A DNA stretch of 64,000 nt from positions 1,751,001 through 1,815,000 of the forward strand of contig NZ_CP136758.1 of NCBI RefSeq assembly GCF_032930845.1. The letters are read 5' to 3'. The position numbers and the translations under genes were made by a program. The notes beneath the pieces are model-generated. The model saw nothing but the letters and a program-made list of their open reading frames with translations, did no database searches and was not told the DNA's origin. This DNA is from Parvularcula sp. LCG005. Lineage in GTDB: Bacteria > Pseudomonadota > Alphaproteobacteria > Caulobacterales > Parvularculaceae. Position 1 is the first letter of the stretch; each line of letters starts with the position of its first letter. Below are positions 27,000 to 52,467 of the stretch, piece after piece.

Positions 27000-27275
27000 C
27001 TATTTTCGACGCCCGCCCAGGACGGCGACGAGCTCCTCAACCTTGGCGCGTCGCTCCTCAAGGTCATCAGCGCGAAGCGCGTGGTCAACGCATGTGGACA
27101 GGTGATCCTGCAGGATAACAGCCTCCAGACTACCAAGAGCGGCCTTGATCGCCTGCACTTGCCGCAGAATGTCGATACAATAACGATCGTCCCGCACCAT
27201 ACCGGTGACACCGCGCACCTGCCCCTCAATCCGGGCAAGCCGTTTTACCGCAGCAGTCTTGGTATTCTCGTTCAT
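27000..27275 (-). CDS. csoR: CsoR-type copper-sensing repressor
   Basis: A 91-residue all-helical repressor of the CsoR/RcnR/FrmR family. The copper(I) ligand set C-H-C is complete: C33 in DRYCIDIL, H58 and C62 in DHLSTCVDHA, at the spacing of M. tuberculosis CsoR (36/61/65). This points to Cu(I), not nickel or formaldehyde. The ATG at 27275 (MNENTKTAAVKRL) has GGAG ahead and is the usual family start; a longer frame to 27335 runs into the divergent promoter. It faces a glutaredoxin-MauE gene with a clear CsoR operator between them, and may also control the Cus operon at 44-51 kb. Confidence 0.93.
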   Translation of the reverse strand: MNENTKTAAVKRLARIEGQVRGVTGMVRDDRYCIDILRQVQAIKAALGSLEAVILQDHLSTCVDHALRADDLEERRAKVEELVAVLGGRRK

Positions 27276-27336: not shown

Positions 27337-27366
27337 TTGACGCCTTCGACCGCTGCCCCATATACC
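27337..27366 (+). promoter_or_regulatory. Sigma-70 promoter of the glutaredoxin-MauE gene
   Basis: TTGACG at 27337-27342 and TATACC at 27361-27366, 18 bases apart, lie 26 bases upstream of the ATG at 27392. The -10 element is overlapped by the CsoR-type operator, giving a simple block-and-release arrangement. Confidence 0.65.
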
Positions 27367-27377
27367 CCTATAGGGTA
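27363..27377. promoter_or_regulatory. CsoR operator
   Basis: TACCC-CTATA-GGGTA is an inverted repeat in the form typical of CsoR boxes (TACCC-N5-GGGTA). Its centre CCCTATAGGG is a perfect 10-bp palindrome. It covers the -10 element of the divergent gene next to csoR itself. Confidence 0.75.
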
Positions 27378-27391
27378 AGCAGGAGGCGCTT

Positions 27392-28192
27392 ATGAGTGCA
27401 ACCCCAATGCAGGAAACACAGTCAGATCTGGCCGCAGGCCGACGCCGGAAGGCCCAGCTCTATCGCATGGTCATGCCCGGGCATGTCTGCCCCTATGGGC
27501 TCAAGTCGAAATGGATGCTCGAGCGCAATGGCTATGACGTTGAGGACCATCACCTGACCACCCGTGCGGAAACCGATGCGTTCAAGGAGAAGCATGGGGT
27601 CAAAACGACTCCGCAGACCTTTATCGGCGACAACCGCATCGGCGGCTATGATGCGCTCAAAACCTATTTTGGCAGCAGACTTGCGCGCAAAGAAGGCGCG
27701 ACGACCTACACGCCGGTCCTGGTCATCTTTGGCATCTGCGCGCTCATGGCGTGGGGCGCCAGTCTGGTTGCGACCGGACAGGTCTTCAGCCTGCGGGGGA
27801 TTGAATGGTTCGCCTCATTCTCCATGGCCGTTCTCGCTATTCAGAAACTGCAGGACGTCGAAAGCTTTTCGACCATGTTTCTGAACTACGACCTTCTGGC
27901 CCGGCGTTGGGTGCCCTACGGCTATATCTATGCCTTTGCTGAGGGGCTGGCGGCTGTGCTCATGATCGCGGGCGGCGGATTTGCGCTGGTCGGGTCCCCT
28001 ATCGCGCTGGTGATCGGGACGATTGGCGCTGCGTCGGTCTTCAAGGCCGTCTATATCGACAAACGCGCGCTCAAATGCGCCTGTGTCGGCGGCAATTCGA
28101 ATGTACCGCTCGGCTTTGTCAGTCTGACGGAAAACCTCGTCATGATGGCCATGGGGATTTGGATGCCGTTCAAGATGCTGGTTCTTGCCTGA
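27392..28192 (+). CDS. Glutaredoxin-MauE/DoxX-like redox membrane fusion protein
   Basis: A 266-residue fusion. The N-terminal part (about 20-95) is a glutaredoxin fold with the dithiol motif CPYG (MVMPGHVCPYGLKSK) and the cis-Pro segment GVKTTPQTFIG. The C-terminal part (about 105-265) has four to five membrane helices of the MauE/DoxX-like family, with a CACVGG Cys pair near residue 230. Such fusions commonly stand next to csoR and are thought to move electrons across the inner membrane to periplasmic thiol or metal partners. AGGAGG precedes the ATG. Control by copper through CsoR is strongly implied by the operator. Exact substrate unknown. Confidence 0.87.
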   Translation: MSATPMQETQSDLAAGRRRKAQLYRMVMPGHVCPYGLKSKWMLERNGYDVEDHHLTTRAETDAFKEKHGVKTTPQTFIGDNRIGGYDALKTYFGSRLARKEGATTYTPVLVIFGICALMAWGASLVATGQVFSLRGIEWFASFSMAVLAIQKLQDVESFSTMFLNYDLLARRWVPYGYIYAFAEGLAAVLMIAGGGFALVGSPIALVIGTIGAASVFKAVYIDKRALKCACVGGNSNVPLGFVSLTENLVMMAMGIWMPFKMLVLA

Positions 28193-37273: not shown

Positions 37274-39073
37274 TCAGACGGCTTTCACAGGAGGCTCAGC
37301 GGATACCCCACCCAGCGTATTGGGTACAGACGAGACGTGCTGCACGACGATCTCGGGATCGAGTTTCCTCAAAGCCGAAAATTGACTGAGGAACACCTCG
37401 CCAGTGAGGTTCTCCATGAAACGCGACCTTTTCAGACCGTCCATGACCGGCCCCTTCACCTCTGATAAATGGAAAGTCACTTCTGAATCGCGCAGGCGGG
37501 CGTTGAGCGCCTCCAGACTCTCGAGGGCACTTGCATCAATTGAGTTCACCGCCGGGCACATCAGGACGAAGTGCCGAACGGATGGGTTCTGTGCCACAAG
37601 GTCATAAACCGCATCTTCCAACCCCCGTGCGTTGGCAAAATACAGGGACTCATCAACACGCAGCGTGATGACCTTGGTGCCGGTCACGACGTCATGTCGG
37701 TCCGTATTGCGAAAATGCTCTGTTCCAGGAACAAGACCGACGATGGCCATGTGCGGGCGCGACGTCTTCAGCAGGAAGAGAAAGAGTGACAGGGCAACGC
37801 CGGTCACGACGCCGGCCTCAACGCCGAAGCCCAGTGTGACGAGTATTGTCGCAATCATCGCGGCGCCATCGGACTTTGAGTAGCGGACCGTTTCGCGAAC
37901 CGCCTTAAGGTCCACCAGGGACAATACGGCGACGATGATGGTGGCGGCCAGCGTGGCCTTCGGCAAATAGGTCAGAAGCGGTGTCATGAACAACGCCGCC
38001 AATCCAATCCCGATCGCCGTATAAGCGCCCGCAGCAGGCGTTTCCGCGCCTGCATCGTAGTTCACTGCGGATCGAGCGAAGCCCCCTGTCACGGGGTAGC
38101 CGGAAGAAAACCCGCTCGCCAGGTTGGCGGCGCCCAGCGCGATAAGTTCCTGGTCTGGATCAATCCGTTGACGTCTCTTCGCCGCGAGGGTCTGGGCGAC
38201 GGATATCGATTCCACAAAGCCGATGATGGAAATGAGGATGGCCGGGCCAATGAGTGCCTTTACCAGCGCCAGGTCAAAGCGCGGCACACTGAGGGGCGGC
38301 AGGCTCCCCTCAACCTCGCCGACAATCGCGACCCCTTGCGCATCAAGGCGCAGCCAGGCCGTAAGTCCAATGGTCACGGCCACGGCCAACACCGGGCCTG
38401 CCTTGGCGACCATGCCCGCCGCCTTTTCATCCATGCCGATGGCGGTCAGGAACGGCGCTAGACCTTTCCGAACCCAGAAGAGAAATGCCGTAGAGCCTGC
38501 ACCAATCATCAGGGTGGGCAGATTTAAGTCACTGATATGTCGGGCAAGTGAGGTCAGAAGCAGGAACAGGTTTTCGCCGTCGGCGTCGACACCAAAAATA
38601 TGCTTGAGCTGGCTCGCCGCGATGATGAGACCCGAGGCCGTAATAAACCCGGAAATGACAGGGTGACTGAGAAAGTTTGCCAGGAACCCAAGACGGAACA
38701 GTCCCATCAGCACAAGGAAGGTTCCAGAGAGAACTGCAAGCATGATTGCAGCAGCAAGATACCCCGCTGTCCCCTGCTCCGCGACCTGCCCCACCGCCGC
38801 AGCGGTGAGAAGGGACACTACAGCAACCGGACCAACGGCAAGGGTCCGCGATGTCCCAAAAATGGCGTAAGCGACGAGCGGCAGGATAGATGCATAAAGC
38901 CCCACCTGTGGCGGAAGGCCCGCCAGGAGCGCGTAGGCGAGAGATTGCGGGATCAGCATGATCGTCACGATCACGGCCGCCAGTGCATCGTTCGCGAAGG
39001 TCTCACCGCGATAGGCTTTCGCCCATGAAAGGATCGGCAGCCAGTCCCGCCGCCGTGACTGCCGAAGTGTCAT
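37274..39073 (-). CDS. SulP-family anion transporter with STAS domain
   Basis: A 599-residue SulP (SLC26-type) carrier. The membrane part (about 25-430) has the family segments AVIVTIMLIPQSLAYALLAGLPPQVGLYASILP and GFSSGYPVTGGFARSAVNYDAGA. The STAS domain (about 455-580) has VRHFVLMCPAVNSIDASALESLEAL. It is the last gene of the peroxiredoxin-bigR-dioxygenase operon, 11 bases after the dioxygenase, so it probably moves sulfate or sulfite produced by persulfide oxidation, or takes up sulfate. The direction and ion cannot be told from sequence. Confidence 0.92.
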   Translation of the reverse strand: MTLRQSRRRDWLPILSWAKAYRGETFANDALAAVIVTIMLIPQSLAYALLAGLPPQVGLYASILPLVAYAIFGTSRTLAVGPVAVVSLLTAAAVGQVAEQGTAGYLAAAIMLAVLSGTFLVLMGLFRLGFLANFLSHPVISGFITASGLIIAASQLKHIFGVDADGENLFLLLTSLARHISDLNLPTLMIGAGSTAFLFWVRKGLAPFLTAIGMDEKAAGMVAKAGPVLAVAVTIGLTAWLRLDAQGVAIVGEVEGSLPPLSVPRFDLALVKALIGPAILISIIGFVESISVAQTLAAKRRQRIDPDQELIALGAANLASGFSSGYPVTGGFARSAVNYDAGAETPAAGAYTAIGIGLAALFMTPLLTYLPKATLAATIIVAVLSLVDLKAVRETVRYSKSDGAAMIATILVTLGFGVEAGVVTGVALSLFLFLLKTSRPHMAIVGLVPGTEHFRNTDRHDVVTGTKVITLRVDESLYFANARGLEDAVYDLVAQNPSVRHFVLMCPAVNSIDASALESLEALNARLRDSEVTFHLSEVKGPVMDGLKRSRFMENLTGEVFLSQFSALRKLDPEIVVQHVSSVPNTLGGVSAEPPVKAV

Positions 39074-39084
39074 CGATCTGCCTG

Positions 39085-40002
39085 TCAGAGTGCGTTGAGA
39101 GGGATTTTGAGATATTGCTGACCGTTATCTTCCGGATCCGGAAGATGACCAGCATTCATGTTGACCTGAACCGATGGCAGGATGAGCGTCGGCATCGCCA
39201 GGGTCGAATCCCGCTCGGTGCGCATCTTGACGAACTCTGCCTCGGTCACGCCGTCGTGGACGTGAATGTTTTCTTTCTTCTGTACCCCGATTGTCGCCTC
39301 CCAGGCATAGTCGTCGCGGCTCTTGGATTTGTAGTCGTGGCAGAGAAACATGCGGGTGTCGTCGGGTAGCAGGAACAGACGCCGGATCGACCGAAACAGT
39401 GTAGCGGCATCGCCGCCGGGGAAATCACAGCGCGCCGTCCCAAAATCCGGCATGAAGATCGTGTCCCCGACAAAAAGGGCGTCGCCGATCAGATAACTCA
39501 TACAGGCCGGCGTATGCCCCGGTGTGTGAATCGCCACACCCTTGAAACGGCCAATCTCGAAGGTAGCCCCATCGTCAAACAGGACATCGAACTGCGAGCC
39601 ATCGCGCTGGAAGGCTGTCCCTGCGTTAAAGACCTTCCCGAAGACATATTGCACCGTCTTGATGTCCGAGCCGATGGCAATCCGGCCACCGAGCTTTTCT
39701 TTCAGATACGGCGCTGCGGAAAGGTGATCGGCATGCACGTGGGTCTCAAGAATGAGATCGACGCTGAGCGCCTTCTGGGCAATGAAATTGAGAATCCTGT
39801 CGGCGCTGACCGTCGTCGTCCGACCAGACTTGTTGTCGAAATCGAGCAGGCTGTCGATGATGGCCGCGGCTTTGGCGTCCTGATCATAGACGACGTATGA
39901 AACAGTGTTTGTTGCCTCATCAAAAAAGGCCTCAACCTGCGGCGCATCATACGGATGATCTTGTATAGTCTCTGGCAAGGCAAGAATGGGACTAGCGGAC
40001 AT
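39085..40002 (-). CDS. blh: Persulfide dioxygenase (Blh/ETHE1-like MBL-fold)
   Basis: A 305-residue metallo-beta-lactamase-fold enzyme of the Blh/ETHE1 group, which oxidises glutathione persulfide to sulfite with a single iron. The metal segment ETHVHADHLSA is canonical, TPGHTPACMSY gives the second His and GDTIFMPDFGTARCDFPGGD the Asp and a family arginine/cysteine segment. Position immediately after a BigR-like repressor repeats the BigR-blh order of Agrobacterium and Xylella. Function in sulfide detoxification is therefore well supported. Confidence 0.93.
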   Translation of the reverse strand: MSASPILALPETIQDHPYDAPQVEAFFDEATNTVSYVVYDQDAKAAAIIDSLLDFDNKSGRTTTVSADRILNFIAQKALSVDLILETHVHADHLSAAPYLKEKLGGRIAIGSDIKTVQYVFGKVFNAGTAFQRDGSQFDVLFDDGATFEIGRFKGVAIHTPGHTPACMSYLIGDALFVGDTIFMPDFGTARCDFPGGDAATLFRSIRRLFLLPDDTRMFLCHDYKSKSRDDYAWEATIGVQKKENIHVHDGVTEAEFVKMRTERDSTLAMPTLILPSVQVNMNAGHLPDPEDNGQQYLKIPLNAL

Positions 40003-40011
40003 CTTGAGCTC

Positions 40012-40401
40012 CTATCGCTCACTGTGAGGAAGAATGCGGGCGAAAACGCTTCCTGCCTCGCGCCTGGCTTTTGGTTTGACGGGCGGCGGCGCTATCGGCT
40101 CTTGGCCGCACAAAATGGCGATGATGCTCGCCGCTTTGGGCTCGACAAGGGAGTAAAAGACGGCTTTGGACTCGCGCCGACCCTCAATCAGGCCAGCTTC
40201 ACGAAGCTTGCCCAACTCCTTGGACAGCGACGGCTGACGGATGCCTGTCCGCTCCTCGAGCTCACCGACGCCACATTCTCCGCTCGTCAGCTCACAGACG
40301 AGCCGAAGGCGCTGCGGGTTCGCGAGCGCACGCAGGAAGTCAGCTGCCTTTTCCGCCTTTTCCTCCATCTCGCTTGGTCGAATGAGAATGTTTGTATTCA
40401 T
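40012..40401 (-). CDS. bigR: ArsR-family BigR/SqrR-like sulfide-responsive repressor
   Basis: A 129-residue winged-helix repressor of the ArsR fold. Recognition region: VGELEERTGIRQPSLSKELGKLREAGLI. Cysteines at 36, 43 and 98 are present; BigR and SqrR use a pair, one in helix 2 and one in helix 5, that is joined by persulfide, and C43 and C98 fit best. No metal-site ELCVCDL motif is present. The chain has a short C-terminal extension past the fold. It starts inside the stop of the peroxiredoxin gene (ATGA) and probably represses both its own operon and the divergent yeeE genes. Confidence 0.88.
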   Translation of the reverse strand: MNTNILIRPSEMEEKAEKAADFLRALANPQRLRLVCELTSGECGVGELEERTGIRQPSLSKELGKLREAGLIEGRRESKAVFYSLVEPKAASIIAILCGQEPIAPPPVKPKARREAGSVFARILPHSER

Positions 40402-41036
40402 CGGGTCCCTCCTGCATACCAGTTCCCGCCAGCCGTCACGGCCTCGGCATCTGTGGCAGGCGCGCTGTTGAGCAGTTCTTCGCCCTTGCTCCAGCCTTCT
40501 GGCGCAACCCGCTCATTCCCGGCGGTTGCCTGCAGCGCTTCAACGAGGCGTAGAAGCTCGGCGACAGACCGGCCAACCTCCATCGGATAATGGACCATGG
40601 CCTTGAGCGTTCCGTGCGGATCAATGACGAACACGGAGCGCACGGTTGCCGTTGAGCTCGCACCGGGATGGATCATGCCATAGCTCCCAGCAATGGCGAG
40701 CGATGGATCCTCCAGTAACGGGAAATACGGACGAATACCGAAGTCAGCCTCGATCCGGTCGAACCAGGCGAGGTGCGAATAGACGCTGTCCACCGACAGG
40801 CCGATCAATGCACAGTCTAAAGCCTCAAACTGGTCCCTGGCCTTGGTCAATCCGACGAATTCAGACGTGCACACCGGTGTAAAATCAGCCGGGTGCGCAA
40901 AGAGCATGACCCACCGGCCAGCATAATCGGACAAACGAATGCGACCCTGTGTCGATCTGGCTTCAAACAGCGGCGCTGGCTCATCGAGCCTCGCCATTGG
41001 GAGCCCGCTATCCTGCTGGGGCGCAACATCGAACAT
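40398..41036 (-). CDS. Peroxiredoxin, Prx6/1-Cys type
   Basis: A 212-residue peroxiredoxin. The peroxidatic cysteine C56 lies in PADFTPVCTSEF, and the conserved Arg is in TVRSVFVIDPHGTLKAM. The long C-terminal arm and the SVDSVYSHLAWF segment match the Prx6-like group. The ATG at 41036 (MFDVAPQQ) has AAAGGCGG ahead; the frame could start ten codons earlier, but that ATG lies inside the palindromic promoter. As first gene of the bigR operon it may reduce peroxides or react with polysulfide formed when sulfide is detoxified. Confidence 0.9.
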   Translation of the reverse strand: MFDVAPQQDSGLPMARLDEPAPLFEARSTQGRIRLSDYAGRWVMLFAHPADFTPVCTSEFVGLTKARDQFEALDCALIGLSVDSVYSHLAWFDRIEADFGIRPYFPLLEDPSLAIAGSYGMIHPGASSTATVRSVFVIDPHGTLKAMVHYPMEVGRSVAELLRLVEALQATAGNERVAPEGWSKGEELLNSAPATDAEAVTAGGNWYAGGTR

Positions 41037-41065
41037 AAAACCCGCCTTTACAATAGTTGCTGCCA

Positions 41066-41093
41066 TATATTATATACTATCGACAAATGTCAA
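41066..41093. promoter_or_regulatory. AT-rich dyad in the divergent sulfide promoter
   Basis: TATAT-T-ATATA (41066-41076) is an 11-base dyad between the divergent peroxiredoxin and yeeE genes. On the minus strand TTGACA (41093-41088) stands ahead of the AT run, which can act as -10. BigR-family repressors bind AT-rich imperfect dyads over such promoters, so this is the likely operator. Confidence 0.55.
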
Positions 41094-41143
41094 CTAATGC
41101 CCGCTGCCGTTGTTCCGGCAAAGGCGCCACCAGGACACTTTCT

Positions 41144-41578
41144 ATGGCCCCAGTTACGATGTTTACCCCTGTCACAGCCCTGCTAGGTGGCGCCATGATC
41201 GGGTTGGCAGCGACGCTATTGATGCTCTCTCTCGGCCGAATTGCCGGGATCAGCGGCATTCTTGCCGGTGCGCTCGGCCGCAATGGAACCGATCGGCCCT
41301 GGCGGCTCGCCTTTCTCGCCGGCCTCATCGCGCCGGGCCTAGCCCTTGCGATGATGGGTCAATTGCCGGATTTTACTTTCGTTGCTAGTGGGCCGCTTCT
41401 AATCGTTGCTGGCCTTCTTGTCGGTTTTGGCACGCGTCTTGGGTCGGGCTGCACGAGTGGTCATGGGGTATGCGGACTGGCGCGTCTCTCCCTCAGGTCT
41501 CTGGTCGCTGTCCTGACGTTCATGGCCGCGGGCGTCGTCACCGTCGGCGCTCTGCGCCACGCCGTCGGAGGTTTCTGA
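41144..41578 (+). CDS. YeeE/YedE-type sulfur transport protein, first half
   Basis: A 144-residue membrane protein of the sulf_transp (DUF395) family with four helices. The conserved cysteine segment GSGCTSGHGVCGLARLS matches the thiosulfate-transport motif of TsuA/YeeE. In BigR operons such proteins are thought to move sulfur compounds across the inner membrane. The ATG at 41144 is chosen because earlier codons encode a basic, non-membrane stretch. Its stop overlaps the next ATG (TGATG); the two genes together match one full YeeE. Confidence 0.88.
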   Translation: MAPVTMFTPVTALLGGAMIGLAATLLMLSLGRIAGISGILAGALGRNGTDRPWRLAFLAGLIAPGLALAMMGQLPDFTFVASGPLLIVAGLLVGFGTRLGSGCTSGHGVCGLARLSLRSLVAVLTFMAAGVVTVGALRHAVGGF

Positions 41579-42015
41579 TGCGCTCTCTGATTTCTTCTTT
41601 CCTAATCGGCAGCCTTTTCGGCGGTGGGCTGATCGTCTCCGGCATGACGGACCCCGCCAAGGTGCAGAATTTTCTGGATGTGTTTGGCCAGTGGGATCCA
41701 AGTCTCGCTCTTGTCATGGGCGGCGCACTGGCCGTAACGTTCATCGGCTTCCGGCTCGTATGGCGTCGCCCTGCGCCCCTTGACCATGATCGCTTCGAGA
41801 TCCCCCGTTCAAACCAACTGACCAAAAGCCTGATCATCGGGTCTGTTCTATTCGGGGCGGGCTGGGGTCTTGCCGGTCTTTGTCCGGGACCTGCCCTTGC
41901 CGTCATCCCCATGGCGCCAGGACCTGCGATGATTTTCTTCGTCGGTCTCTACGGCGGCGTGATTCTTCACACCGTCTGGGAAAAGAAAAAGGCGGAACGC
42001 CCGGTGCGCGAATAG
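41578..42015 (+). CDS. YeeE/YedE-type sulfur transport protein, second half (DUF6691)
   Basis: A 145-residue membrane protein with four helices, partner of the preceding gene. It begins with FLIGSLFGGGLIVSGMTDPAKVQNFLDVFGQWDPS and has the conserved GAGWGLAGLCPGPALA with one Cys, the counterpart of the Cys segment in the first half. Translational coupling by TGATG indicates an assembled pair. Confidence 0.88.
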   Translation: MRSLISSFLIGSLFGGGLIVSGMTDPAKVQNFLDVFGQWDPSLALVMGGALAVTFIGFRLVWRRPAPLDHDRFEIPRSNQLTKSLIIGSVLFGAGWGLAGLCPGPALAVIPMAPGPAMIFFVGLYGGVILHTVWEKKKAERPVRE

Positions 42016-42103
42016 GGCTTGCGGCGGCAACAACGACCCCCTTGACCACGGGCAACCCTCACAGCACGCGTTGTCCAGAACAACATTTTGGAATTGACCG
42101 GCA

Positions 42104-43441
42104 ATGAAACTTGAAAAAATCAAGACCGAGGGTCTCGCCCATCTATCCTATCTCCTCACTTCCAATGGCGAAGCAGCCGTTATCGATCCGAGGCGCGATA
42201 TCGATGTCTATCTCGACCCGGCGCGGCGCGATGGGTGCCGCATCACGCATATTTTTGAGACCCATCGGAACGAAGATCTGGTCTCTGGCGCAGGTCTCCT
42301 CGCCGAAGTGACGGGAGCGGACGTTTGGCACGGCCCCAACCCGGCAGAGCCTATACGATATGCGAAAACGACGCGGGAGGGCGACAGCTATCAGGTTGGC
42401 GACGCCAGGATTGAGGTTCTCGAAACCCCTGGTCATACTTACGACTCGCTGTCCTTCATTTTATTCGATCAAAGCGCTCAAGACGGGCCGGTTGGGGTTT
42501 TTACCGGCGACGCCCTTTTTGTCGGAGACGTGGGGCGCACAGATTTTTATCCGGGCAAGGAACGTGAGGTCTCCGGGCTTCTCTATGACAGCCTTCAGAA
42601 ACTGCTGAAGCTGGGCGACCATGTCCTTCTGTACCCTGCCCATGGTGCCGGGTCGGTTTGCGGGTCGGGAATGGCCGACCGCGAATTCTCCACTATCGGG
42701 CACGAACGGCGTAACAATCCACGCCTTGGGCTCGACCGCGACGCCTTCATCGAGGCGAAACTGGCCGAGCATCATGAGCAACCGCCCTATTTCCGGCTGA
42801 TGGAACGCCTGAACGTCGAAGGCGCCTCACCGACGCGGCGCTACCCCCTGCCGCCGCCCAAACCGATCCTGAAGGCATCAGCCGAGGACAGCCAGCTTGT
42901 GGACGTCCGCGGCGTTGTCGACTTTGCGGGCGCCCACATTCCCGGTTCGATCGCCATTCCCGACGATATGCTCGCTGCATTTGCAGGCTGGGTGCTGGAT
43001 CCTGATCAGGCGATCGATCTTGTCTGCAGGGACGCCGCACAGGCTGAGCGCTCGGTTCTGACCCTCGAGCGGATCGGGTATGATCATGTTGAGAGTTTCC
43101 GTACCGGGATGGTACCAGTCGCCTCGTCCGGGGCGGCCTTCGCATCCCTGACCATGGTTGGCACAGAAACGGTCAGGGAACGGCTGGGCACTGGGGGGTG
43201 GATGCTTCTCGATGTGCGCGGCATCGACGAGTTCGCCGCCGGGCATATCGAGGGCGCAACAAACATCTATCTGGGACACCTGCCCTCCCGTGTTGCGGAA
43301 CTTCCCCGCGATAAGTCGATCACGGTGATGTGCGGAAGCGGAGCCCGGGCGACGATTGCGGCATCGATCCTGCTGCGAAATGGATTTGAGAACGTCGATG
43401 TCTATCTGGGCTCCTGGAAGGCCTGGACCTCATCGATATAG
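42104..43441 (+). CDS. Persulfide dioxygenase-rhodanese fusion (CstB-like)
   Basis: A 445-residue fusion: an MBL-fold dioxygenase (about 1-235) followed by two rhodanese domains (about 265-345 and 355-445). The first metal segment is ETHRNEDLVSG rather than THVHADH; H54, H111 (TPGH) and D136 (TGDALF) still match the three iron ligands of ETHE1 enzymes. The second rhodanese has the active-site loop MCGSGAR with its Cys; the first has LVCRDAAQ. CstB-like proteins turn persulfide into thiosulfate. It lies 88 bases after the yeeE pair, probably in one transcript. Confidence 0.9.
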   Translation: MKLEKIKTEGLAHLSYLLTSNGEAAVIDPRRDIDVYLDPARRDGCRITHIFETHRNEDLVSGAGLLAEVTGADVWHGPNPAEPIRYAKTTREGDSYQVGDARIEVLETPGHTYDSLSFILFDQSAQDGPVGVFTGDALFVGDVGRTDFYPGKEREVSGLLYDSLQKLLKLGDHVLLYPAHGAGSVCGSGMADREFSTIGHERRNNPRLGLDRDAFIEAKLAEHHEQPPYFRLMERLNVEGASPTRRYPLPPPKPILKASAEDSQLVDVRGVVDFAGAHIPGSIAIPDDMLAAFAGWVLDPDQAIDLVCRDAAQAERSVLTLERIGYDHVESFRTGMVPVASSGAAFASLTMVGTETVRERLGTGGWMLLDVRGIDEFAAGHIEGATNIYLGHLPSRVAELPRDKSITVMCGSGARATIAASILLRNGFENVDVYLGSWKAWTSSI

Positions 43442-43508: not shown

Positions 43509-44228
43509 TCAGCGCCGCCGTCGTACTGATTGCCACCGCCCGTAGGAACGGCGCATGCGAAACACCAGGATTGTCAGCCCAGAGACAGACACGAGCAAGC
43601 CAAGTCCCGCTGAAACGATGAGCAGTGGATGATTGAAGTCGGCGCCGTCGTCATAGTCCATGACGTGAAGACGCCAGAAGAAGTCGAACAGCCGCCATGT
43701 ATCCGAACGGCGGGCACGGACCTTTCCCGTATCCGGATCGACATAAAGGCGGGTATTTCCGGCGTCGTCGAATTGTACCTGCCAGACGGGTCCGCCCGGT
43801 CCGTACTCGGAGGGCGGATCGGTCAACATCTTTACGCTGGCGACCTGCCCGTCTCCGGCAAAGTCATATTCGGCGATCTGCCTCGCAAGCGCTTGAGGCA
43901 CGGGTGAAATGATCGTCCCTTCTTTAGCCTCGACGATCACGGTACGCGCTCCCCCGTGCAGTTCCCAGACAGGCTCACCAAGGAGTCGGCTTAGCGTGGC
44001 ATTTTCCACGGCCTCCATTCCTGCCGCCTTGACCGCCTGTTCCAGAGAAACGATGGCGCCAGGATCGACGGCCACGATTGGCGCGTCGGCGACCTTATGG
44101 TCGCCGCGGACACGTTCGATGGGCAACACACTCATCACAAAGCCGCCCAGAATCCACAGAAGGACCTGGACGCCGATAATCAGGGCGATCCACTTATGAA
44201 GGCGGACGGCCCACCGCAACAGCGCCAT
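43509..44228 (-). CDS. PepSY-domain membrane protein of the Cus operon
   Basis: A 239-residue protein with an N-terminal membrane helix (about 13-36), an outer segment with PepSY features (YVDPDTGKVRARRSDTWRLFDFFWRLHVMDY) and a C-terminal helix (about 203-225). The FWRLHVMDY segment is shared with PepSY-type iron and copper reductase-like proteins. It is the last gene of the efflux operon, three bases after cusF. Exact role unknown; it might reduce or hand over the metal at the inner membrane. Confidence 0.82.
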   Translation of the reverse strand: MALLRWAVRLHKWIALIIGVQVLLWILGGFVMSVLPIERVRGDHKVADAPIVAVDPGAIVSLEQAVKAAGMEAVENATLSRLLGEPVWELHGGARTVIVEAKEGTIISPVPQALARQIAEYDFAGDGQVASVKMLTDPPSEYGPGGPVWQVQFDDAGNTRLYVDPDTGKVRARRSDTWRLFDFFWRLHVMDYDDGADFNHPLLIVSAGLGLLVSVSGLTILVFRMRRSYGRWQSVRRRR

Positions 44229-44231
44229 GGA

Positions 44232-44657
44232 TTAGTGATCCATCTCTGCCATGCAGTCGCTCATTTCTGTGCCCTGATCACATATATGGGTGACACGCCA
44301 TGACCCGTCGCGGCCCTGCTTGACCATGAACATCACCTCGTCACCTGCTGAGAGGGTCGCCAGATCGACATTACCCGTCGTCCCGAAGGCCATCGTCATC
44401 GCGGCCATATCTGCGCCTGCAAGCGGGCCATGATCGATCTCGATCCGACGTCCTTCCAGGTCAACCGACACAATCCGTCCCTCACCATGAGCCAGACCTT
44501 CGCCCATGGATCCGCTGTGGTCGGACATATCGTGTTCTGCCATCTCGTCGATGGCCGTGGCCGCCACCTTGGTGTCAGGCGTAGCTGCCTCTTCGCTTGG
44601 CCCGCCACACGCGGCGAGGGCCAGCATCGACGCAGTCAGCAGAATGATCGGTTTCAT
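44232..44657 (-). CDS. cusF: CusF-like periplasmic copper-binding lipoprotein
   Basis: A 141-residue protein with a lipoprotein signal (LAAC, Cys17) and a C-terminal CusF domain (about 57-125). The metal segment reads DHGPLAGADMAAMTM: H76, M87 and M89 match H36, M47 and M49 of E. coli CusF, but the cation-pi tryptophan (W44) is replaced by M84 at the exact spacing. A second His-Met stretch, EHDMSDHSGSM, lies before the domain. GAGGAG precedes the start; 44660 is an alternative ATG. It would pass Cu(I)/Ag(I) to the CusCBA pump. Confidence 0.87.
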   Translation of the reverse strand: MKPIILLTASMLALAACGGPSEEAATPDTKVAATAIDEMAEHDMSDHSGSMGEGLAHGEGRIVSVDLEGRRIEIDHGPLAGADMAAMTMAFGTTGNVDLATLSAGDEVMFMVKQGRDGSWRVTHICDQGTEMSDCMAEMDH

Positions 44658-44675
44658 CATATATCTCCTCAAGGT

Positions 44676-47600
44676 TTAGTTTTGCGGTATAGAATGGCGA
44701 TCGCCAAGAGCAGACGCGCGCCGGGCGTCCAATTGGTGCGAGACCCAGACCGTGTAGATCACGGGGATCACGATGAGGGTCAGAAGAGTTGTCGAGATCA
44801 TGCCCCCCAGCATCGGCAGGGCAATACGGCGCATCACGTCCGATCCAAGGCCTTCAGTGAAGAAGATCGGCGCCAGACCGACAATAATCGTTGAAACCGT
44901 CATTAGCTTCGGCCGCACGCGGAGGACGGCACCATGCGTGACGGCACGAATGAGACCCGGCAAATCCGCCGGACGCTCTTCTCGCACTTGGGCATCGATA
45001 TAAAGTAGCATTACCACGGCGGTCTCGACTGCGATGCCCCCGAGCGCGATGAAGCCGACAGCGACGGCAACGGAAAAGTCGTATCCAGCACCCCACAGCG
45101 CCCACAGACCACCAAGGAGTCCAAAAGGCAGGGATGCCATGATGATCAGCGTGCGGTCCAAACGCCCGAAATGCAGCATCAGAAGGAGGAAGATGAGCCC
45201 CGCTGCGGCGGGAATGGCGATCCGTAATCGCGCAGCCGCTTCCTCGAGCTGTTCATACTGGCCGGACCATTCGATGGCGTAGCCCGGCGGCAGCGCGATC
45301 GCCTTGTCCACCACGTCCCGCGCCTCGGAAACATAGCCGCCAAGATCGCGCCCCGTGATATCGACAAAGACCCAGCCCGTCATGCGCGCGTTCTCTGAAC
45401 GGATCATTGGCGGGCCCTCAGCGAACACGATATCCGCCACCTCGCCTAGCGGGATATGACTGCCCGATGCACTGGGTATCAGGATATCCCCAAGGTCCTC
45501 TGGACGCTCACGGAACGGACGGTCATAGCGCAGAAGGATGTCGTAGCGCTCTCGACCTTCGACGCTTTGGGACAGAGGCATGCCGCCAATGGCCGTCTGC
45601 ACGACCATCTGAAAAGTCCCCATGTCGATATTTCGCCGCGCGAGCTCGGCCCGGTCGGGCTGGATTTCGAGATAGCGCCCCCCAAGCACGCGATCCGCAA
45701 AGGCGGACCGTGTCCCCGGCACCTCAGCGACGACGGCCTCGATCTCCTGGGCGATCCTTTCAATCTCTCCAAGGTCGTCGCCCGTCACCTTGATGCCGAC
45801 CGGCGTGCGCACGCCGGTCGAAACCATATCCATACGGATCTTGATGGGATACCCCCAGCTGTTGACGAGACCCGGCATCTGAAGCCGCCGATTGAGATCG
45901 TCGATCAGCGCTTCGGGGGTCACGCCGTCGCGCCACTCCTCCCGAGGCTTCAGCCGGATCCAGGTTTCAATCATCGTCAACGGGGCGGGGTCGGTGGCCG
46001 TATCGGCCCGTCCAGCTTTACCGAAAACGCTTTCAACCTCTGGCACCCCGGCGATCACACGGTTCGTCTGCCCCAGAATCTCGCGAACCTTGGTCTGGGA
46101 CACCCCGGGCAAGGTCGACGGCATGTAGAGAAGCTCGCCTTCGTAGAGCGCGGGCATGAATTCTGATCCCGTCCGCGACAGAGGAATGAGGGCGCTGAGC
46201 ATCAGGAGCGCCGTCAACCCGATGGTCGCCCAACGGTATCGCATGGCAAGCGCCAGGACAGGCCGGTACGCCGCGACGAAGAAACGGTTTACCGGATTGG
46301 CCTCCTCCCGCCGGATCCGCCCGCGCAAGAGCCAGACCATCAGGACCGGCACAAGCGTCACGGAAAGCAATGCTGCGAAGGCCATGGCGTAGGTCTTGGT
46401 GAAGGCCAGCGGCGAGAAGAGCCGGAAACTCTGGCCGGTCAAGGCAAAGACCGGCAGAAAGGACACCACGATAATCAGGAGGGAGAAAAAGACCCCAGGG
46501 CCCACCTCCTTCGCTGCGGTCAGGATCGCGGCGCGTCGTTCCGTGGGCGACGGATCATCGAGCCCCGAAAGCTTACGGCTGGCGTTCTCCACCATGACGA
46601 TCGACGCATCCACCATGGCGCCGATGGCGATGGCGATGCCGCCCAGCGACATGATGTTTGCCGTGACGCCCTGCCCGGACATCACCAGAAAGGCCCCGAG
46701 AACGCCGAGCGGCAACGTGATGATCGCGACAAACGCCGCCCTGACGTGCAGCAGGAAGATCAGCGTCACGAGGGCGACAGCGATCCCCTCCTCAACCAGC
46801 TTATGTTCGAGATAGGAGACAGCGCCCTCGATCAGCGGCGCCCGATTGTAGACCGGCACGATCTCGACCCCATCAGGCAGCCCGCCTCGCAATTGGTCAA
46901 GCTTCGTCTCGACACGGTCGATCACTTCCAGTGCGTTCTCTCCGTCGCGCATCACCACGATGCCGGCAACGACCTCGCCCTGGCCATTAAGATCAACGAC
47001 ACCGCGGCGAAGGGCGGGACCTTCGACGATGCGGGCCAGGTCGCCGAGCGTCACGGGTGTGCCGTCCGCTGCGTAGACAACTGCCTGCTCGAGGTCCTCT
47101 CGCTCGTCGACATAGCCGGAGGAGCGGACCATGAACTCTGTCTCCCCCTGCTCGATCACGCGACCGCCCACTTCTGCGCTGGCGCCGCGGACCGTCTCGG
47201 CAATTTGCCCGATAGGTACGTTGAAAACGCGCAGCTTGTTGGGATCGATGAGCACCTGATACTCGCGGACATATCCGCCGACAGAAGCGACCTCGGCCAC
47301 CCCTTCGACGGCAGAGAGCTCGAGCTTCAAGAACCAGTCCTGGATGGAGCGCAGCTCGGCAATGTCTGTTCTGCCGGTCCTGTCGACCAACGCGTACTGA
47401 TAGATCCAGCCCACCCCCGTGGCGTCGGGACCAATCTGGGGCGTCGCCGCCTCGGGCAGGACGTCGCCAAGGCGGGAGAGCGCCTCCACCACCCGCGAAC
47501 GCGCCCAGTAAAGGTCCACATCATCCTCGAAAATGACGTAGACGAAGCTCGTCCCGAACATGGACGCCCCGCGCACATCCTTCGTCTTCGGCAGCCCAAG

Positions 47601-47870
47601 AAGCTGCGTTGACAGGGGATAGGTGACGAGATCCTCGACGATCTGGGGAGACTGGCCGGGGAAGTCGGTCCGGATAATCACCTGAGTGTCTGTCAGATCC
47701 GGGATTGCGTCCAAAGGTGTCCGCTGCACGGCCAACCATCCCGAAACGGCAAGCGCCGCCGCGAGGCCCACAACGATAAGCTGATTGCGGACGGACCAGT
47801 CGATAAGGGCCGCCACCCAGCTTTTCGAGGGATCATGGCCGGTCAGAGAGGGTTCAAGATCGCTCATCAT
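44676..47870 (-). CDS. cusA: CusA-type heavy-metal RND efflux pump
   Basis: A 1064-residue inner-membrane RND protein of the heavy-metal efflux group, driving Cu(I)/Ag(I) out with protons. Marks: TDTQVIIRTDFPGQSPQIVEDLVTYP and LGLPKTKDVRGASMFG at the N-terminal porter domain, GAMVDASIVMVENA in helix 4 and MPGLVNSWGYPIKIRMDM with TGVRTPVGIKVTG in the porter. These follow CusA more than CzcA. It is in order cusC-cusB-cusA-cusF. It starts six bases past cusB. Confidence 0.95.
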   Translation of the reverse strand: MMSDLEPSLTGHDPSKSWVAALIDWSVRNQLIVVGLAAALAVSGWLAVQRTPLDAIPDLTDTQVIIRTDFPGQSPQIVEDLVTYPLSTQLLGLPKTKDVRGASMFGTSFVYVIFEDDVDLYWARSRVVEALSRLGDVLPEAATPQIGPDATGVGWIYQYALVDRTGRTDIAELRSIQDWFLKLELSAVEGVAEVASVGGYVREYQVLIDPNKLRVFNVPIGQIAETVRGASAEVGGRVIEQGETEFMVRSSGYVDEREDLEQAVVYAADGTPVTLGDLARIVEGPALRRGVVDLNGQGEVVAGIVVMRDGENALEVIDRVETKLDQLRGGLPDGVEIVPVYNRAPLIEGAVSYLEHKLVEEGIAVALVTLIFLLHVRAAFVAIITLPLGVLGAFLVMSGQGVTANIMSLGGIAIAIGAMVDASIVMVENASRKLSGLDDPSPTERRAAILTAAKEVGPGVFFSLLIIVVSFLPVFALTGQSFRLFSPLAFTKTYAMAFAALLSVTLVPVLMVWLLRGRIRREEANPVNRFFVAAYRPVLALAMRYRWATIGLTALLMLSALIPLSRTGSEFMPALYEGELLYMPSTLPGVSQTKVREILGQTNRVIAGVPEVESVFGKAGRADTATDPAPLTMIETWIRLKPREEWRDGVTPEALIDDLNRRLQMPGLVNSWGYPIKIRMDMVSTGVRTPVGIKVTGDDLGEIERIAQEIEAVVAEVPGTRSAFADRVLGGRYLEIQPDRAELARRNIDMGTFQMVVQTAIGGMPLSQSVEGRERYDILLRYDRPFRERPEDLGDILIPSASGSHIPLGEVADIVFAEGPPMIRSENARMTGWVFVDITGRDLGGYVSEARDVVDKAIALPPGYAIEWSGQYEQLEEAAARLRIAIPAAAGLIFLLLMLHFGRLDRTLIIMASLPFGLLGGLWALWGAGYDFSVAVAVGFIALGGIAVETAVVMLLYIDAQVREERPADLPGLIRAVTHGAVLRVRPKLMTVSTIIVGLAPIFFTEGLGSDVMRRIALPMLGGMISTTLLTLIVIPVIYTVWVSHQLDARRASALGDRHSIPQN

Positions 47871-47876
47871 GCCTGC

Positions 47877-49532
47877 CTAGTGATTATGCCCGGCCATGGC
47901 GGGGCGATTTGAAGGTGCACCGCCCATCGTCATGGCTTCGGGCCATTCGATACGCTCGGCAACGCCGTTGCCATAGGGATTGATCGGCCCACTGCCCTCC
48001 TGCACCCAAAGGTGATCTTCTTCGGTTTGGAAGAGCGCCAAACCGTTGTCTGCATAGTGCTGCGGGGCCCCCTCAAGAAGCCACGGGCGCAGGCCTTCCA
48101 TGAGATCAGAAAGCGCAGCTGCCAGTTCTTCAGGGCCGTCCGCGTTCTGAGCAGCCCGAACCGCTCCCTCAGTATGCAGAATGATCGGTGAAAGGCGCGT
48201 GTTTGCATACCGCGCGCGCAGTGTTTCTCCAACGCGCAAGGTCGGCTCAAGGAAACTCGGCTGCACCGAATAGCCATCCACCAGCGCCTCGTGGATATAG
48301 AGCGCGGCATCGACGAAGTGATCGACCATTGCCAACGTCTCCTCGGTCATCGGCAGATCCGAAAGCGCAACCTCAGGGCCGAGGCCGCCGCTCATCTTCG
48401 CAAAACCCTCCCTGAGGCTTGATTCGGAATCGAGCAGGAACTGGCCGCTGGTGACAATCTCCTCGCCCGGTTGCAGGCCCGCGATGATTTCTGTGCGTCC
48501 CATGGCGGACAGCCCGGTCTGCACCGGCCGAGGCGCGAACCGACCGCCGCCCAGCGCGATCACCACATGGGCGCCGCGACTATCGCGCAGGATTGCTTCG
48601 CTCGGCACGGAAAGACGCGGCCTGTCCTCAACCGCAAAAGTAACATCTGCATAGGCACCAGGCCGAAGGGCGTTGTTCTCGTTCGACAGGACGATCCGGA
48701 CGCTGCCTGTTCGGGTCTCAGCATTGACGGTCGGATAGACGTAATCGACCCGGGCTTCCCGCTCGGGCACTGCGGCAGCGGACACGCTGACGGTCGCAAG
48801 CGTCCCCTCTGCGATCGCTGGAAGGTCCTGCTCCGCCACCGAAGCAATAATCCACACTTCGTCATAGCGCTGTAGGCGGAGGATGATGGCCCCGGGTCGC
48901 ACATAGGTTCCGTCGCGGACGGCCAGCTCAGCGACGACACCGTTCTCCTCCGCCGTCACTGGCATGCGCTCGATCACGGCACGGCCTTCTCGCAGGCTTG
49001 CAATGACCGCGTTCTGCATGCCGAGGGAGCGCAGGCGCTGGGCCGCAGCGTCGATACGGCCATCAGCTCCCGTCCGTAACGCAGCGAGATAGTCCTGCTG
49101 GGCGCCGATCAGGTCCGGGCTGTAAACGCGGTAAAGAAGGTCCCCCTTTTCGACGCGATCACCTTCGGCCGTCACCGAGAGGTCCTCGATCCATCCTTCG
49201 ACGCGCGACGCTACGACTGTTTCAGCGCGGGTACTTGGCTCAACACGGCCGAAAGCGCGAATCTGCCGCGCAAACGAGACGACTTCTGCCGGAGCCGTGC
49301 GTACACCCATGGTCTGAATCATGGCGGAGGAAACGGCGATGCCTTCCTCCCTTCCGCTATCGCCCGAGGATGCTTGGGCGACAGGCACAAGATCCATCCC
49401 GCAGATGGGGCAGACTCCATCAGCGTCCGTGGAAATGTAGTGAGGGTGCATGGGACAGGTGTAGCTCGCCGCCTCTTGCCCGTGCGCGATACCTGCGAAC
49501 AGGACGATGAAAACGAAGAAAAGATGTCTCAT
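47877..49532 (-). CDS. cusB: CusB-type periplasmic adaptor with heavy-metal-binding domain
   Basis: A 551-residue membrane-fusion protein. After a signal peptide (ending GIAHG) comes a small heavy-metal-binding domain, YTCPMHPHYIS...CPICGMDLVPV (about 24-48), often present in CusB/CopB systems. Barrel-sandwich, helical hairpin and beta-barrel parts follow (GRVEPSTRAETVVASRVEGW; VRPGAIILRLQRYDEVWI). A C-terminal extension of about 130 residues ends AMAGHNH, His- and Met-bearing and perhaps metal-binding. The stop of cusC overlaps its start (ATGA). Confidence 0.93.
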   Translation of the reverse strand: MRHLFFVFIVLFAGIAHGQEAASYTCPMHPHYISTDADGVCPICGMDLVPVAQASSGDSGREEGIAVSSAMIQTMGVRTAPAEVVSFARQIRAFGRVEPSTRAETVVASRVEGWIEDLSVTAEGDRVEKGDLLYRVYSPDLIGAQQDYLAALRTGADGRIDAAAQRLRSLGMQNAVIASLREGRAVIERMPVTAEENGVVAELAVRDGTYVRPGAIILRLQRYDEVWIIASVAEQDLPAIAEGTLATVSVSAAAVPEREARVDYVYPTVNAETRTGSVRIVLSNENNALRPGAYADVTFAVEDRPRLSVPSEAILRDSRGAHVVIALGGGRFAPRPVQTGLSAMGRTEIIAGLQPGEEIVTSGQFLLDSESSLREGFAKMSGGLGPEVALSDLPMTEETLAMVDHFVDAALYIHEALVDGYSVQPSFLEPTLRVGETLRARYANTRLSPIILHTEGAVRAAQNADGPEELAAALSDLMEGLRPWLLEGAPQHYADNGLALFQTEEDHLWVQEGSGPINPYGNGVAERIEWPEAMTMGGAPSNRPAMAGHNH

Positions 49533-50764
49533 GACGTCACCAGCAGGCTGTTGGCTTCTGCCGTCAGCGCAATCACGCGCGCTCGTTCTGCCGCCAATTG
49601 TGACCGCAACTCCAGGGCGGCGAGTTCGGCATCAATGACCGCGGAATAAGCACCGTACCCCGCCTCATAGTTTGACCGCGCAGCGCGGGCCTGTTCGTCC
49701 AGCCCCGCGACTTTGACGTCGAGCAGGCGAACGCTGTCCTCTGCGGCGATGCGCGCCGCATCGAGCCGTTGCCAGGCCGCCTGTGCCGTCCGGGCGGTGG
49801 CGGCAAGATCGGACCTCGCCCCAGCCTCCCTCGCCTTCGCCGCGCGCAGCTTGGGGTCCTGATTGTTTCGTTTCCACAGCGGCACCGTGAAGCTGATCTG
49901 GGCCGAGAACCAATCATCGCCCCGGAAGGTCTCACCCGGCAGACCGGAGCCGGCCTCCCGTTGCTGGTAGGTGACCCCCACGCCCCAGTTGGGCCTGTAC
50001 GCCGCCTCGGCCCGCATCGTGCCGGCTTCGGCAATGTCGATCCCGGCATCGGCCAGTCTGACTGCATGGAAAGCGTTCGCCTCACCCCCCCATTTTCGCG
50101 GCGCGATGGGCGGCAGATCCGTCTGCGGCACGTCGCCCACGAGGTCGATGAGTGTCGCCTCGACCGCGGCCATTTCAGCGGCGAGTCCGGCCTGACGGCG
50201 GTCAAGCTCGACGCGCTCGACATCGATCTGCGCCAGACGAAATGCCACCGCCCGGCCGGCCGCGAGATCGGTTTGCACCGTCTCGGTCAGGGCAGCAAAA
50301 GCGACGGCCTGTGATTTGAGAACTTGCGTCTGCTCGGCAATCCGCTGCCGGTCCGCCAGGGCGGTAATAAGATGGGCGCGCAAGGCCGCGAGCCTTTGAT
50401 CAGCCAACAGACGCAGTCGTGTCGCTTGCCCATCGGACATCGCCGCACCCGCGCGACGGGCTTTCAAATTGGGGATATCCTGCCGCACGCCGATGGCCTT
50501 GTTGGTGGGCAAAAAGCGGTCGAACGCCGGATCCTCCACAGGCAAATTGTTGATGCCCAGGCTGATGACGGGATCCGGCAGGCCGAGCGCCGCCAGACCA
50601 TCTGCCCCGATCGCTTTCGTCTGCCATTCGAGCGACTGGAGAGCGGGATGTGCACGAAGACGCGCCTCGAGATCATCAAAGGATTGGGCGTGTGCGGAGA
50701 CGAGCAGGAGCGGCGCGGCCAGAACGGCCGAGAACACGCGGCTGAGCGATAGTGATGTTGACAT
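49529..50764 (-). CDS. cusC: CusC-type outer-membrane efflux protein (TolC family)
   Basis: A 411-residue TolC-family outer-membrane factor, the exit duct of the copper/silver pump. The signal peptide ends LLLVSAHAQ. Two outer-membrane efflux repeats are visible (about 25-205 and 220-405) with the heptad-like coiled-coil ARAARSNYEAGYGAYSAVIDAELAALELR. The ATG at 50764 is chosen for its signal peptide, though no clear ribosome site precedes it; a TTG at 50815 would add 17 residues. It follows the small Cys-rich gene. Confidence 0.9.
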   Translation of the reverse strand: MSTSLSLSRVFSAVLAAPLLLVSAHAQSFDDLEARLRAHPALQSLEWQTKAIGADGLAALGLPDPVISLGINNLPVEDPAFDRFLPTNKAIGVRQDIPNLKARRAGAAMSDGQATRLRLLADQRLAALRAHLITALADRQRIAEQTQVLKSQAVAFAALTETVQTDLAAGRAVAFRLAQIDVERVELDRRQAGLAAEMAAVEATLIDLVGDVPQTDLPPIAPRKWGGEANAFHAVRLADAGIDIAEAGTMRAEAAYRPNWGVGVTYQQREAGSGLPGETFRGDDWFSAQISFTVPLWKRNNQDPKLRAAKAREAGARSDLAATARTAQAAWQRLDAARIAAEDSVRLLDVKVAGLDEQARAARSNYEAGYGAYSAVIDAELAALELRSQLAAERARVIALTAEANSLLVTS

Positions 50765-50832
50765 AAAAAATCCGACGGCTGAACGAACAAAAAGGACGCG
50801 CGGAGGCACGTCCAAGCGGGTTCAGCGTCGGA

Positions 50833-51222
50833 TCAGAGAAGGAGACGTTGCTTGAGGGTCAATGGCGTCTGCCCCGGGGGCGCAGTGCAGGGAGGCCGAA
50901 TAAAACCTGTTGTCACCGGCGGCAGGCTGATCGCGAGCTCCACCGCCACGGGCTGCAGGATGATTACCTCGGGCGCTCTTTCGTAAGCAGCCTTGAGGGT
51001 TTGTTTTGGTGTCGCCCAAGCCTTCGTTACGCAGGCATCGCATCCGGGGCAGTCGCCTTGGTCTGGCGGCGTCGGTTTCGTCTCGCCATGGCAGGGCGGA
51101 TCAGCCGGCGCGGCGCTGACGATTTCGCCATGACCGCTTTCAGTCAGGCAACAGGCCATCGCCGGCCCTGCCATGAATAGCAGCGCCGCCACCAAACCGA
51201 GAAGGCGAGCCGAAAGCGTCAT
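50833..51222 (-). CDS. Small Cys-rich exported protein leading the Cus operon
   Basis: A 129-residue protein with a signal peptide ending GPAMA. The mature part starts CCLTESGHGE, then has PPCHGETK and DCPGCDACVT, giving seven to eight cysteines and two histidines, and ends with a hydrophobic, proline-rich tail. No catalytic motif is known to me. As first gene of the efflux operon with a CsoR-like site ahead, a periplasmic copper-binding or copper-sensing role is likely but inferred. Confidence 0.8.
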   Translation of the reverse strand: MTLSARLLGLVAALLFMAGPAMACCLTESGHGEIVSAAPADPPCHGETKPTPPDQGDCPGCDACVTKAWATPKQTLKAAYERAPEVIILQPVAVELAISLPPVTTGFIRPPCTAPPGQTPLTLKQRLLL

Positions 51223-51255
51223 GGAAAGAAAACTAACCGCAATTGATTAATACTG

Positions 51256-51269
51256 ATACCCCCTGGGTG
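51256..51269. promoter_or_regulatory. CsoR-like operator ahead of the Cus operon
   Basis: ATACCCCCTGGGTG contains ACCC-N3-GGGT arms and closely resembles the operator at 27363-27377, though the spacer is two bases shorter. It lies 35-47 bases upstream of the first Cus gene, beside a TATTAAT -10-like element (minus strand, about 51247-51253). Control by the intact CsoR at 27 kb is plausible. Confidence 0.5.
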
Positions 51270-51319
51270 CATCGTCCATTTCTTATGCGACAAATTAGCA
51301 TGGTCTGCCGCTGTTTTGC

Positions 51320-51560
51320 CTACGCGCGCCGCTCGTTGGGTGTCTTGAACTGGAGGGCGCGCTCGACGCATGCGCTGAGGCGATTGTTCCGAATGACCCA
51401 CACCGGGGACGCTAAGCGCTTGCCTTGAGCGCCTGCACCTGCCGGACGGATCAATAGAGTAACGGTCGTTGCAGAGGGTCTTTGAGTACGCGCGCACGTG
51501 GCCCTCTCCCCCTGCAAAACGCTGACTGACGGACGATCGGATGTCGGACGGCGTCAGCTC
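51320..51560 (-). pseudogene. csoR: Decayed csoR gene
   Basis: Three frames read in turn give a CsoR protein: frame one SQRFAGGEGHVRAYSKTL then NDRYSID; frame two VRQVQALKASA then a stop; frame three VIRNNRLSACVERALQ to NERRA and a stop. These align in order with the intact CsoR (KRLARIEGQVRG, DDRYCIDILRQVQAIKAAL, VILQDHLSTCVDHAL, EERRA). At least two frameshifts break it. Two of three copper ligands are lost (Cys to Ser, His to Asn), so it decayed some time ago. The upstream limit is approximate. It stands exactly where a repressor of the Cus operon would be expected. Confidence 0.8.
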
Positions 51561-51825
51561 ATTCTCCCGGTCGGAATGAGCGACAATCGGATCGGCAGGT
51601 GCGACGACAGAAAGTCGGATTGACAGGAATAATGAGTGGTACACTGATGAGTAAATCGAGGTCCACCATTCCCGATGAAGACCCTGTCTGGGGGCCATTT
51701 TCGTGAATACCGACCGTCCTCTGCGGAAAATGCCGTCTGGGTGACCGTTTCGCTTATCAACGAATTTTATTGACATTCCAGCCTCAAGGCCCACGCTAAC
51801 ATATGATAGTTTGGGGGACTACAGC

Positions 51826-52467
51826 ATGAAAAACATTATCTTCGGAGCAGTTGCGCTGGTGTTCGCGATGGGCCAGGCCCATGCGGCACTGCTCTTAAAG
51901 CTCGACGCGATCGGCGAAGGCGCTGCGAGCGATGCTGGCTCGAACGATGGCGGGTTTTTTATCACCCTGTCTATACCCAGCACGAGCTTTTCCTACTCTG
52001 AGGCTTTCGACCCGTCATTCGTACTCTTTGCCGGTACGCTGATCACAGAAGACACGACGCTGCGCGCGTCATCGGGCGCCGCGTTCGATCTTTTCGCCGA
52101 GTCGTTGACGGATGGGGATAGCCAGTTGATTTATCTTACCATAGGCCGCAACATCGGTGGCACACCATCGGCTGTAAGCGTAGTGGGACAATACGAGAGC
52201 AGTTTTTTCCGCTCTGCGAACCCATTGGTTACTGTCAACGCCAGCACAAATGGTATTGACCTTGCGTCCTTTGTGATCACCGAAGTGGTCATGACAATCA
52301 GCAATGTCGAGGCGTCCGCCTCCACCACGGGTTACTTCATCAAGTTTGACCGAACGCTAGAAATCTATGGCACGCCGGCCGCAGTGCCCGTTCCGGCTGC
52401 GCTGCCGCTGATGGGAGCGGGGCTCGGCCTATTTGCTGCACTCCGTCGTCGCCGGCGCGCTCGTTAA
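51826..52467 (+). CDS. PEP-CTERM/VPLPA-CTERM surface protein
   Basis: A 213-residue exported protein: signal peptide ending GQAHA, a beta-rich middle with no known domain, and a C-terminal sorting signal VPVPAALPLMGAGLGLFAAL followed by six Arg-rich residues. This is the VPLPA-CTERM form of the PEP-CTERM signal, cut by exosortase-type enzymes in exopolysaccharide-producing bacteria. No exosortase is in the window. Convergent with a second protein of the same class. Confidence 0.85.
   Translation: MKNIIFGAVALVFAMGQAHAALLLKLDAIGEGAASDAGSNDGGFFITLSIPSTSFSYSEAFDPSFVLFAGTLITEDTTLRASSGAAFDLFAESLTDGDSQLIYLTIGRNIGGTPSAVSVVGQYESSFFRSANPLVTVNASTNGIDLASFVITEVVMTISNVEASASTTGYFIKFDRTLEIYGTPAAVPVPAALPLMGAGLGLFAALRRRRRAR

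Follow-up and report, generated by a model that had tools for sequence, protein, structure and literature searches.

CsoR has been described in M. tuberculosis, B. subtilis and S. lividans as part of an autoregulated operon, and both csoR sequences considered here derive from the same family. Another kind of copper control is known from Rhodobacter capsulatus, where a CutF-like leader together with a stem-loop makes the translation of the next gene copper-dependent (PMC9973294; PMC8456105). The genes found most often beside those for CutF-like proteins encode outer membrane efflux proteins (PMC9973294), and a related leader, CruR of Bordetella, acts in the opposite sense (PMC9426467).

This study revealed that a cus efflux operon of the marine bacterium Parvularcula sp. 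LCG005, located in the 64,000-nucleotide stretch analysed here (the window), has lost the CsoR repressor gene that formerly headed it, which persists as a pseudogene at 51320-51557. The best overall explanation, which we consider probable, combines this pseudogene with a retained operator, control in trans by the CsoR encoded at 27 kb and an additional translational layer; within it, the occupancy of the operator by this CsoR and the function of the leader are proposed from sequence. The features of the locus are as follows.

51561 to 51577, unstranded: decayed remnant of the upstream csoR operator, now ATTCTCCCGGTCGGAAT where G005, a relative of the same genus, has ATACCCCCAACGGAGTAT; low matrix score
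51320 to 51557, minus strand: csoR pseudogene, recognized from tblastn fragments, DNA similarity to the csoR of relatives and a syntenic intact copy in G005
51256 to 51272, unstranded: retained putative CsoR-type operator ATACCCCCTGGGTGCAT, between the pseudogene and the operon, before the leader ORF and the cus genes
50833 to 51222, minus strand: CutF-like leader ORF of 129 aa, first gene of the operon, conserved in relatives
50769 to 50834, minus strand: predicted hairpin, from the leader stop codon to just before the cusC ATG (50764-50762)
49529 to 50764, minus strand: cusC-like outer membrane efflux protein (PF02321, E 1.3e-23)
47877 to 49532, minus strand: cusB-like adaptor (PF16576, E 1.1e-66)
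44676 to 47870, minus strand: cusA-like RND pump (TIGR00914, over cut-off)
44232 to 44672, minus strand: cusF-like copper protein (PF11604, E 1.7e-20)
43509 to 44228, minus strand: PepSY-domain membrane protein (PF03929, PF03413), at the end of the operon; gene order shared with G005

An earlier note on this DNA had claimed that three frames rebuild a CsoR along its length, and this was borne out. With the 27-kb CsoR, at 27003-27275 on the minus strand, as query, tblastn returned three collinear, linked minus-strand matches between residues 6 and 77 with a joint E of 0.001: 51539-51450 (residues 6-35, frame -3), 51447-51418 (residues 37-46, frame -2) and 51397-51323 (residues 53-77, frame -1). 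The proposed placement stands for 51320-51557, on the minus strand, and DNA similarity runs from about 51557 to about 51280, being weak at this 3' end. When 51223-51826 was compared by blastn with 60 related genomes, csoR genes were the top matches, with E values of 1.1e-9 for Aquisalinus luteolus (G015) and 1.3e-7 for G005, and DNA alignments of the pseudogene with intact csoR genes scored 18-25 standard deviations above shuffled sequence. No plasmid record was found to resemble the region.

With regard to the state of the gene, similarity to PF02583 CsoR proteins extends along its length, but there is no single open reading frame with a start and the Cys-His-Cys copper ligands are incomplete. 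The start position carries no ATG, GTG or TTG, at least two changes of reading frame occur, and stops are present at 51414-51412 in the frame of the second fragment and at 51322-51320 in that of the third. The earlier note had reported the first two ligands as replaced by Ser and Asn. Cys33 is indeed Ser, but His58 has become Arg (CAC to CGC), the Asn standing at the neighbouring Asp57, and Cys62 is kept. Differences from the G005 csoR amount to 0.39, 0.36 and 0.51 per site at the three codon positions, compared with 0.08-0.19, 0.07-0.12 and 0.41-0.60 for intact csoR genes. Substitutions in the pseudogene thus fall on all codon positions, and it is no longer constrained as a coding sequence; a rough estimate is that this has been so for the greater part of the time since its lineage and that of G005 split.

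The suggestion that related strains be searched for an intact copy proved fruitful. G005 carries an intact 91-residue csoR in exactly the syntenic position. There the gene is the first of the cus operon, whose order is shared with the window (csoR, leader ORF, cusC, cusB, cusA, cusF, pepSY); the encoded proteins other than CsoR are 71-93% identical. This shared order identifies the pseudogene as the former head of the operon and upholds the claim that the local repressor was lost. As a DNA tree gave no placement for the pseudogene (branch length 2.86), synteny is the basis for regarding it as an orthologue of the G005 gene. The ancestral order, read from these sequences, is operator, csoR, a probable internal operator, leader, cusCBAF and pepSY, and survives in G005.

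The earlier note had also claimed that a CsoR-like operator remains, and one was found at 51256-51272, outside the interval given there for the pseudogene. It has the canonical spacing and two mismatches to ATACCC-N5-GGGTAT, both in one half, and ranks 4th among 127,967 positions by a half-site matrix; in the pattern scans a spacing of 5 picks up this site and a spacing of 6 does not. All 17 of its bases are identical in G005, while the adjoining pseudogene is 61% identical. The chance of an 18-base identical run in the stretch is about 2%, as estimated from a 62% background, so that the identity to G005 taken by itself is suggestive of operator conservation; it could also reflect constraint on a promoter. 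The operator reading is strengthened by matching sites in several other genera, at the same internal spot in the gap between csoR and the leader ORF. Relatives also have an ATACCC-N5/6-GGGTAT dyad upstream of csoR. The left half of the retained site is degenerate (ATGCAC for ATACCC), which may make CsoR binding at this predicted site weak. In Luminiphilus and other Halieaceae (L155-L166), most csoR genes have two upstream CsoR-type dyads, 34 bp apart.

Other relatives also lack an intact csoR at this place. The leader-cus operon of G004, G009 and G008 has no csoR immediately upstream, yet it is directly preceded by an operator-like dyad. In A. luteolus (L025:4908-4991 and 4440-4850), all that is left of csoR is its final 28 codons, followed by the near-perfect operator ATACCCCTTGAGGGGTAT and then the leader-cus operon. 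Like the window, this genome thus has a csoR remnant before a retained operator and the leader-cus operon; it differs in the shortness of the remnant, in the near-perfect dyad and in having a full csoR at a distance of 3.4 kb.

G005 also has a second csoR (L023:8734-9006), which is nearly identical to copies in Hyphomonas and Henriciella (L110 and others) and lies in the same metallo-beta-lactamase/rhodanese-csoR-leader-cus block, an arrangement that suggests a copper island exchanged not long ago. At L022:9867-16607 of G005, csoR is divergent from genes for a copper ATPase and a multicopper oxidase. The oxidase has no match in the genome of the window and the ATPase only a 36% match, so that at the csoR end half of a copper island may have been lost from this genome. 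These oxidase and ATPase comparisons were left out of the reasoning on cus control.

The intact CsoR reported at 27 kb was confirmed. It lies 24 kb from the pseudogene, with the following features.

27000 to 27275, minus strand: intact CsoR (PF02583, E 1.3e-26; Cys33-His58-Cys62), the proposed regulator in trans
27362 to 27378, unstranded: CsoR operator, flanked by csoR and the divergently oriented glutaredoxin/MauE gene
27392 to 28192, plus strand: glutaredoxin-MauE fusion gene, divergent from csoR (PF07291, over cut-off)

Genome-wide scans were made by patterns and by families. This protein is the sole CsoR match in the genome; it combines the family profile with a nearby operator and a Cys-His-Cys site that is intact on alignment with solved CsoR proteins, and is 76% identical to the CsoR of the G005 cus operon. 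The core of its operator is a perfect TACCC-N5-GGGTA, which occurs nowhere else in the 3.08 Mb genome. The fusion gene has glutaredoxin-type NCBIfam matches and a weak PF00462 match below cut-off, and its pairing with csoR recurs in G009, G015 and other relatives. CueR was sought in the genome and not found; CusR-like response regulators are present, none of them over the family cut-off and none in the cus operon. Sulfur-related genes occupy 37274-43441, in the interval that separates the cus operon from the intact csoR: a SulP permease, a peroxiredoxin, DUF6691 and two metallo-beta-lactamase proteins, of which one has rhodanese domains. In other genera the rhodanese fusion is found directly upstream of csoR. 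A strong operator-like match at 37303-37320, ATACCCCACCCAGCGTAT, lies inside the 3' end of the sulfate-permease gene and is probably due to chance.

The simplest reading is that the cus operon is controlled in trans by the 27-kb CsoR. This is favoured by the kept operator, by the single intact CsoR with its own operator, by the lack of a CueR, and by the csoR-less cus operons of the genus and family that have an operator. According to this reading, csoR and its own upstream operator would have decayed while the internal operator before the leader ORF stayed. Without copper, the 27-kb CsoR would most likely bind 51256-51272, and it would release the operator once Cu(I) fills the Cys-His-Cys site. 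The leader and the hairpin ahead of cusC would probably add a second, translational copper check.

The leader ORF corresponds to the published description of CutF-like proteins (PMC8456105, PMC9973294): it is shorter than 170 aa, has no Pfam domain, and has a putative signal peptide (a hydrophobic N-terminal segment read from the sequence), a Cys motif and a C-terminal PP. The Cys motif, CPGCDAC, is of the CXXC type instead of CXXXC, and the C-terminus reads RPP...TPLTLKQRLLL. No match was obtained among Pfam and NCBIfam profiles, including DUF2946/CruR (PF11162). The same leader occurs in relatives among the Parvularculaceae and Hyphomonadaceae, with an unusually conserved C-terminal TP-(V/I/L)-(T/S)-LKQR. 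The hairpin (-37.5 kcal/mol, z -8.2) is predicted as a stem-loop before cusC that would shield its ribosome-binding site; z is -5.5 in G005 and weaker in G004 (-1.3) and G009 (-2.6). By analogy, leader and hairpin probably form a second, translational copper switch on the operon.

These elements could also carry most of the control themselves, with the hairpin and leader gating cusC and CsoR playing a minor part at a weak site. We regard this as rather unlikely, albeit the most serious alternative. The hydrophobic N-terminus, CPGCDAC and conserved Pro-rich end of the leader, the z value of the hairpin and the published precedent, with outer membrane efflux genes as the commonest CutF-like neighbours (PMC9973294), all speak for it. 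However, the operator-like site is unchanged amid diverged surroundings, which argues that something still reads it, and relatives that have kept CsoR possess the leader as well, so that both layers normally coexist.

Control in trans with a translational layer is likewise preferred to a free-running pump, transcribed constitutively since the repressor was lost, which the earlier note had offered on equal terms with regulation in trans. Of these two options the latter is favoured, and equal standing of the former is not supported: although the local repressor is dead and the operator imperfect, the operator is the same as in G005 while the adjoining gene has lost its coding constraint, an intact CsoR is encoded in the same genome, and other cus operons of the genus and family without an adjacent csoR keep an operator. 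In addition, the CutF-like leader and hairpin could give copper control independent of CsoR, and a pump with such a leader is unlikely to be simply free-running. We therefore judge constitutive expression to be improbable. That the similarity to csoR is a product of chance or a sequencing artefact can be dismissed as next to impossible: the protein-level match is modest on its own, but the DNA-level matches, the shuffle test and the syntenic intact gene in G005 rule out chance, and substitutions across all codon positions, with a difference of 39%, are not explicable by sequencing error.

A local repressor could thus be lost while control is kept, given a binding site beside the pump and a closely related repressor elsewhere. 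We tentatively suggest, with somewhat less than even confidence, that the cus operon of Parvularculales and Hyphomonadales has two locks, the internal CsoR operator and the CutF-like leader with its hairpin, which would allow csoR to be shed with copper control kept; the stages would be an intact gene (G005), a wreck (the window), a C-terminal stub (G015) and complete absence (G004, G009). A single cus operon of a free-living bacterium would carry both a transcriptional switch (CsoR) and a probable translational one (CutF-like). That a redundant local repressor is lost is nothing unusual, and the kept internal operator, the parallel losses and the leader add modest interest.

Compared with the described CsoR systems, the candidate operator here is likewise a C-rich/G-rich dyad, and csoR heads the copper operon in relatives. 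In the window, by contrast, the local csoR is dead, and the operator-like site that is left separates it from the pump operon. With regard to CutF and CruR, the leader is set apart from both by the lack of a Pfam DUF2946 match, and differs from CutF in preceding a cusC-type gene rather than cutO and in having CPGCDAC rather than CXXXC. Nevertheless, like CutF of Rhodobacter capsulatus and CruR of Bordetella pertussis, it is a small protein that has a Cys motif, a hydrophobic N-terminus and Pro-Pro at its C-terminal end and is encoded by the first gene of a copper operon; a stem-loop is predicted to precede the following gene, as it does in cutFOG (PMC9973294).
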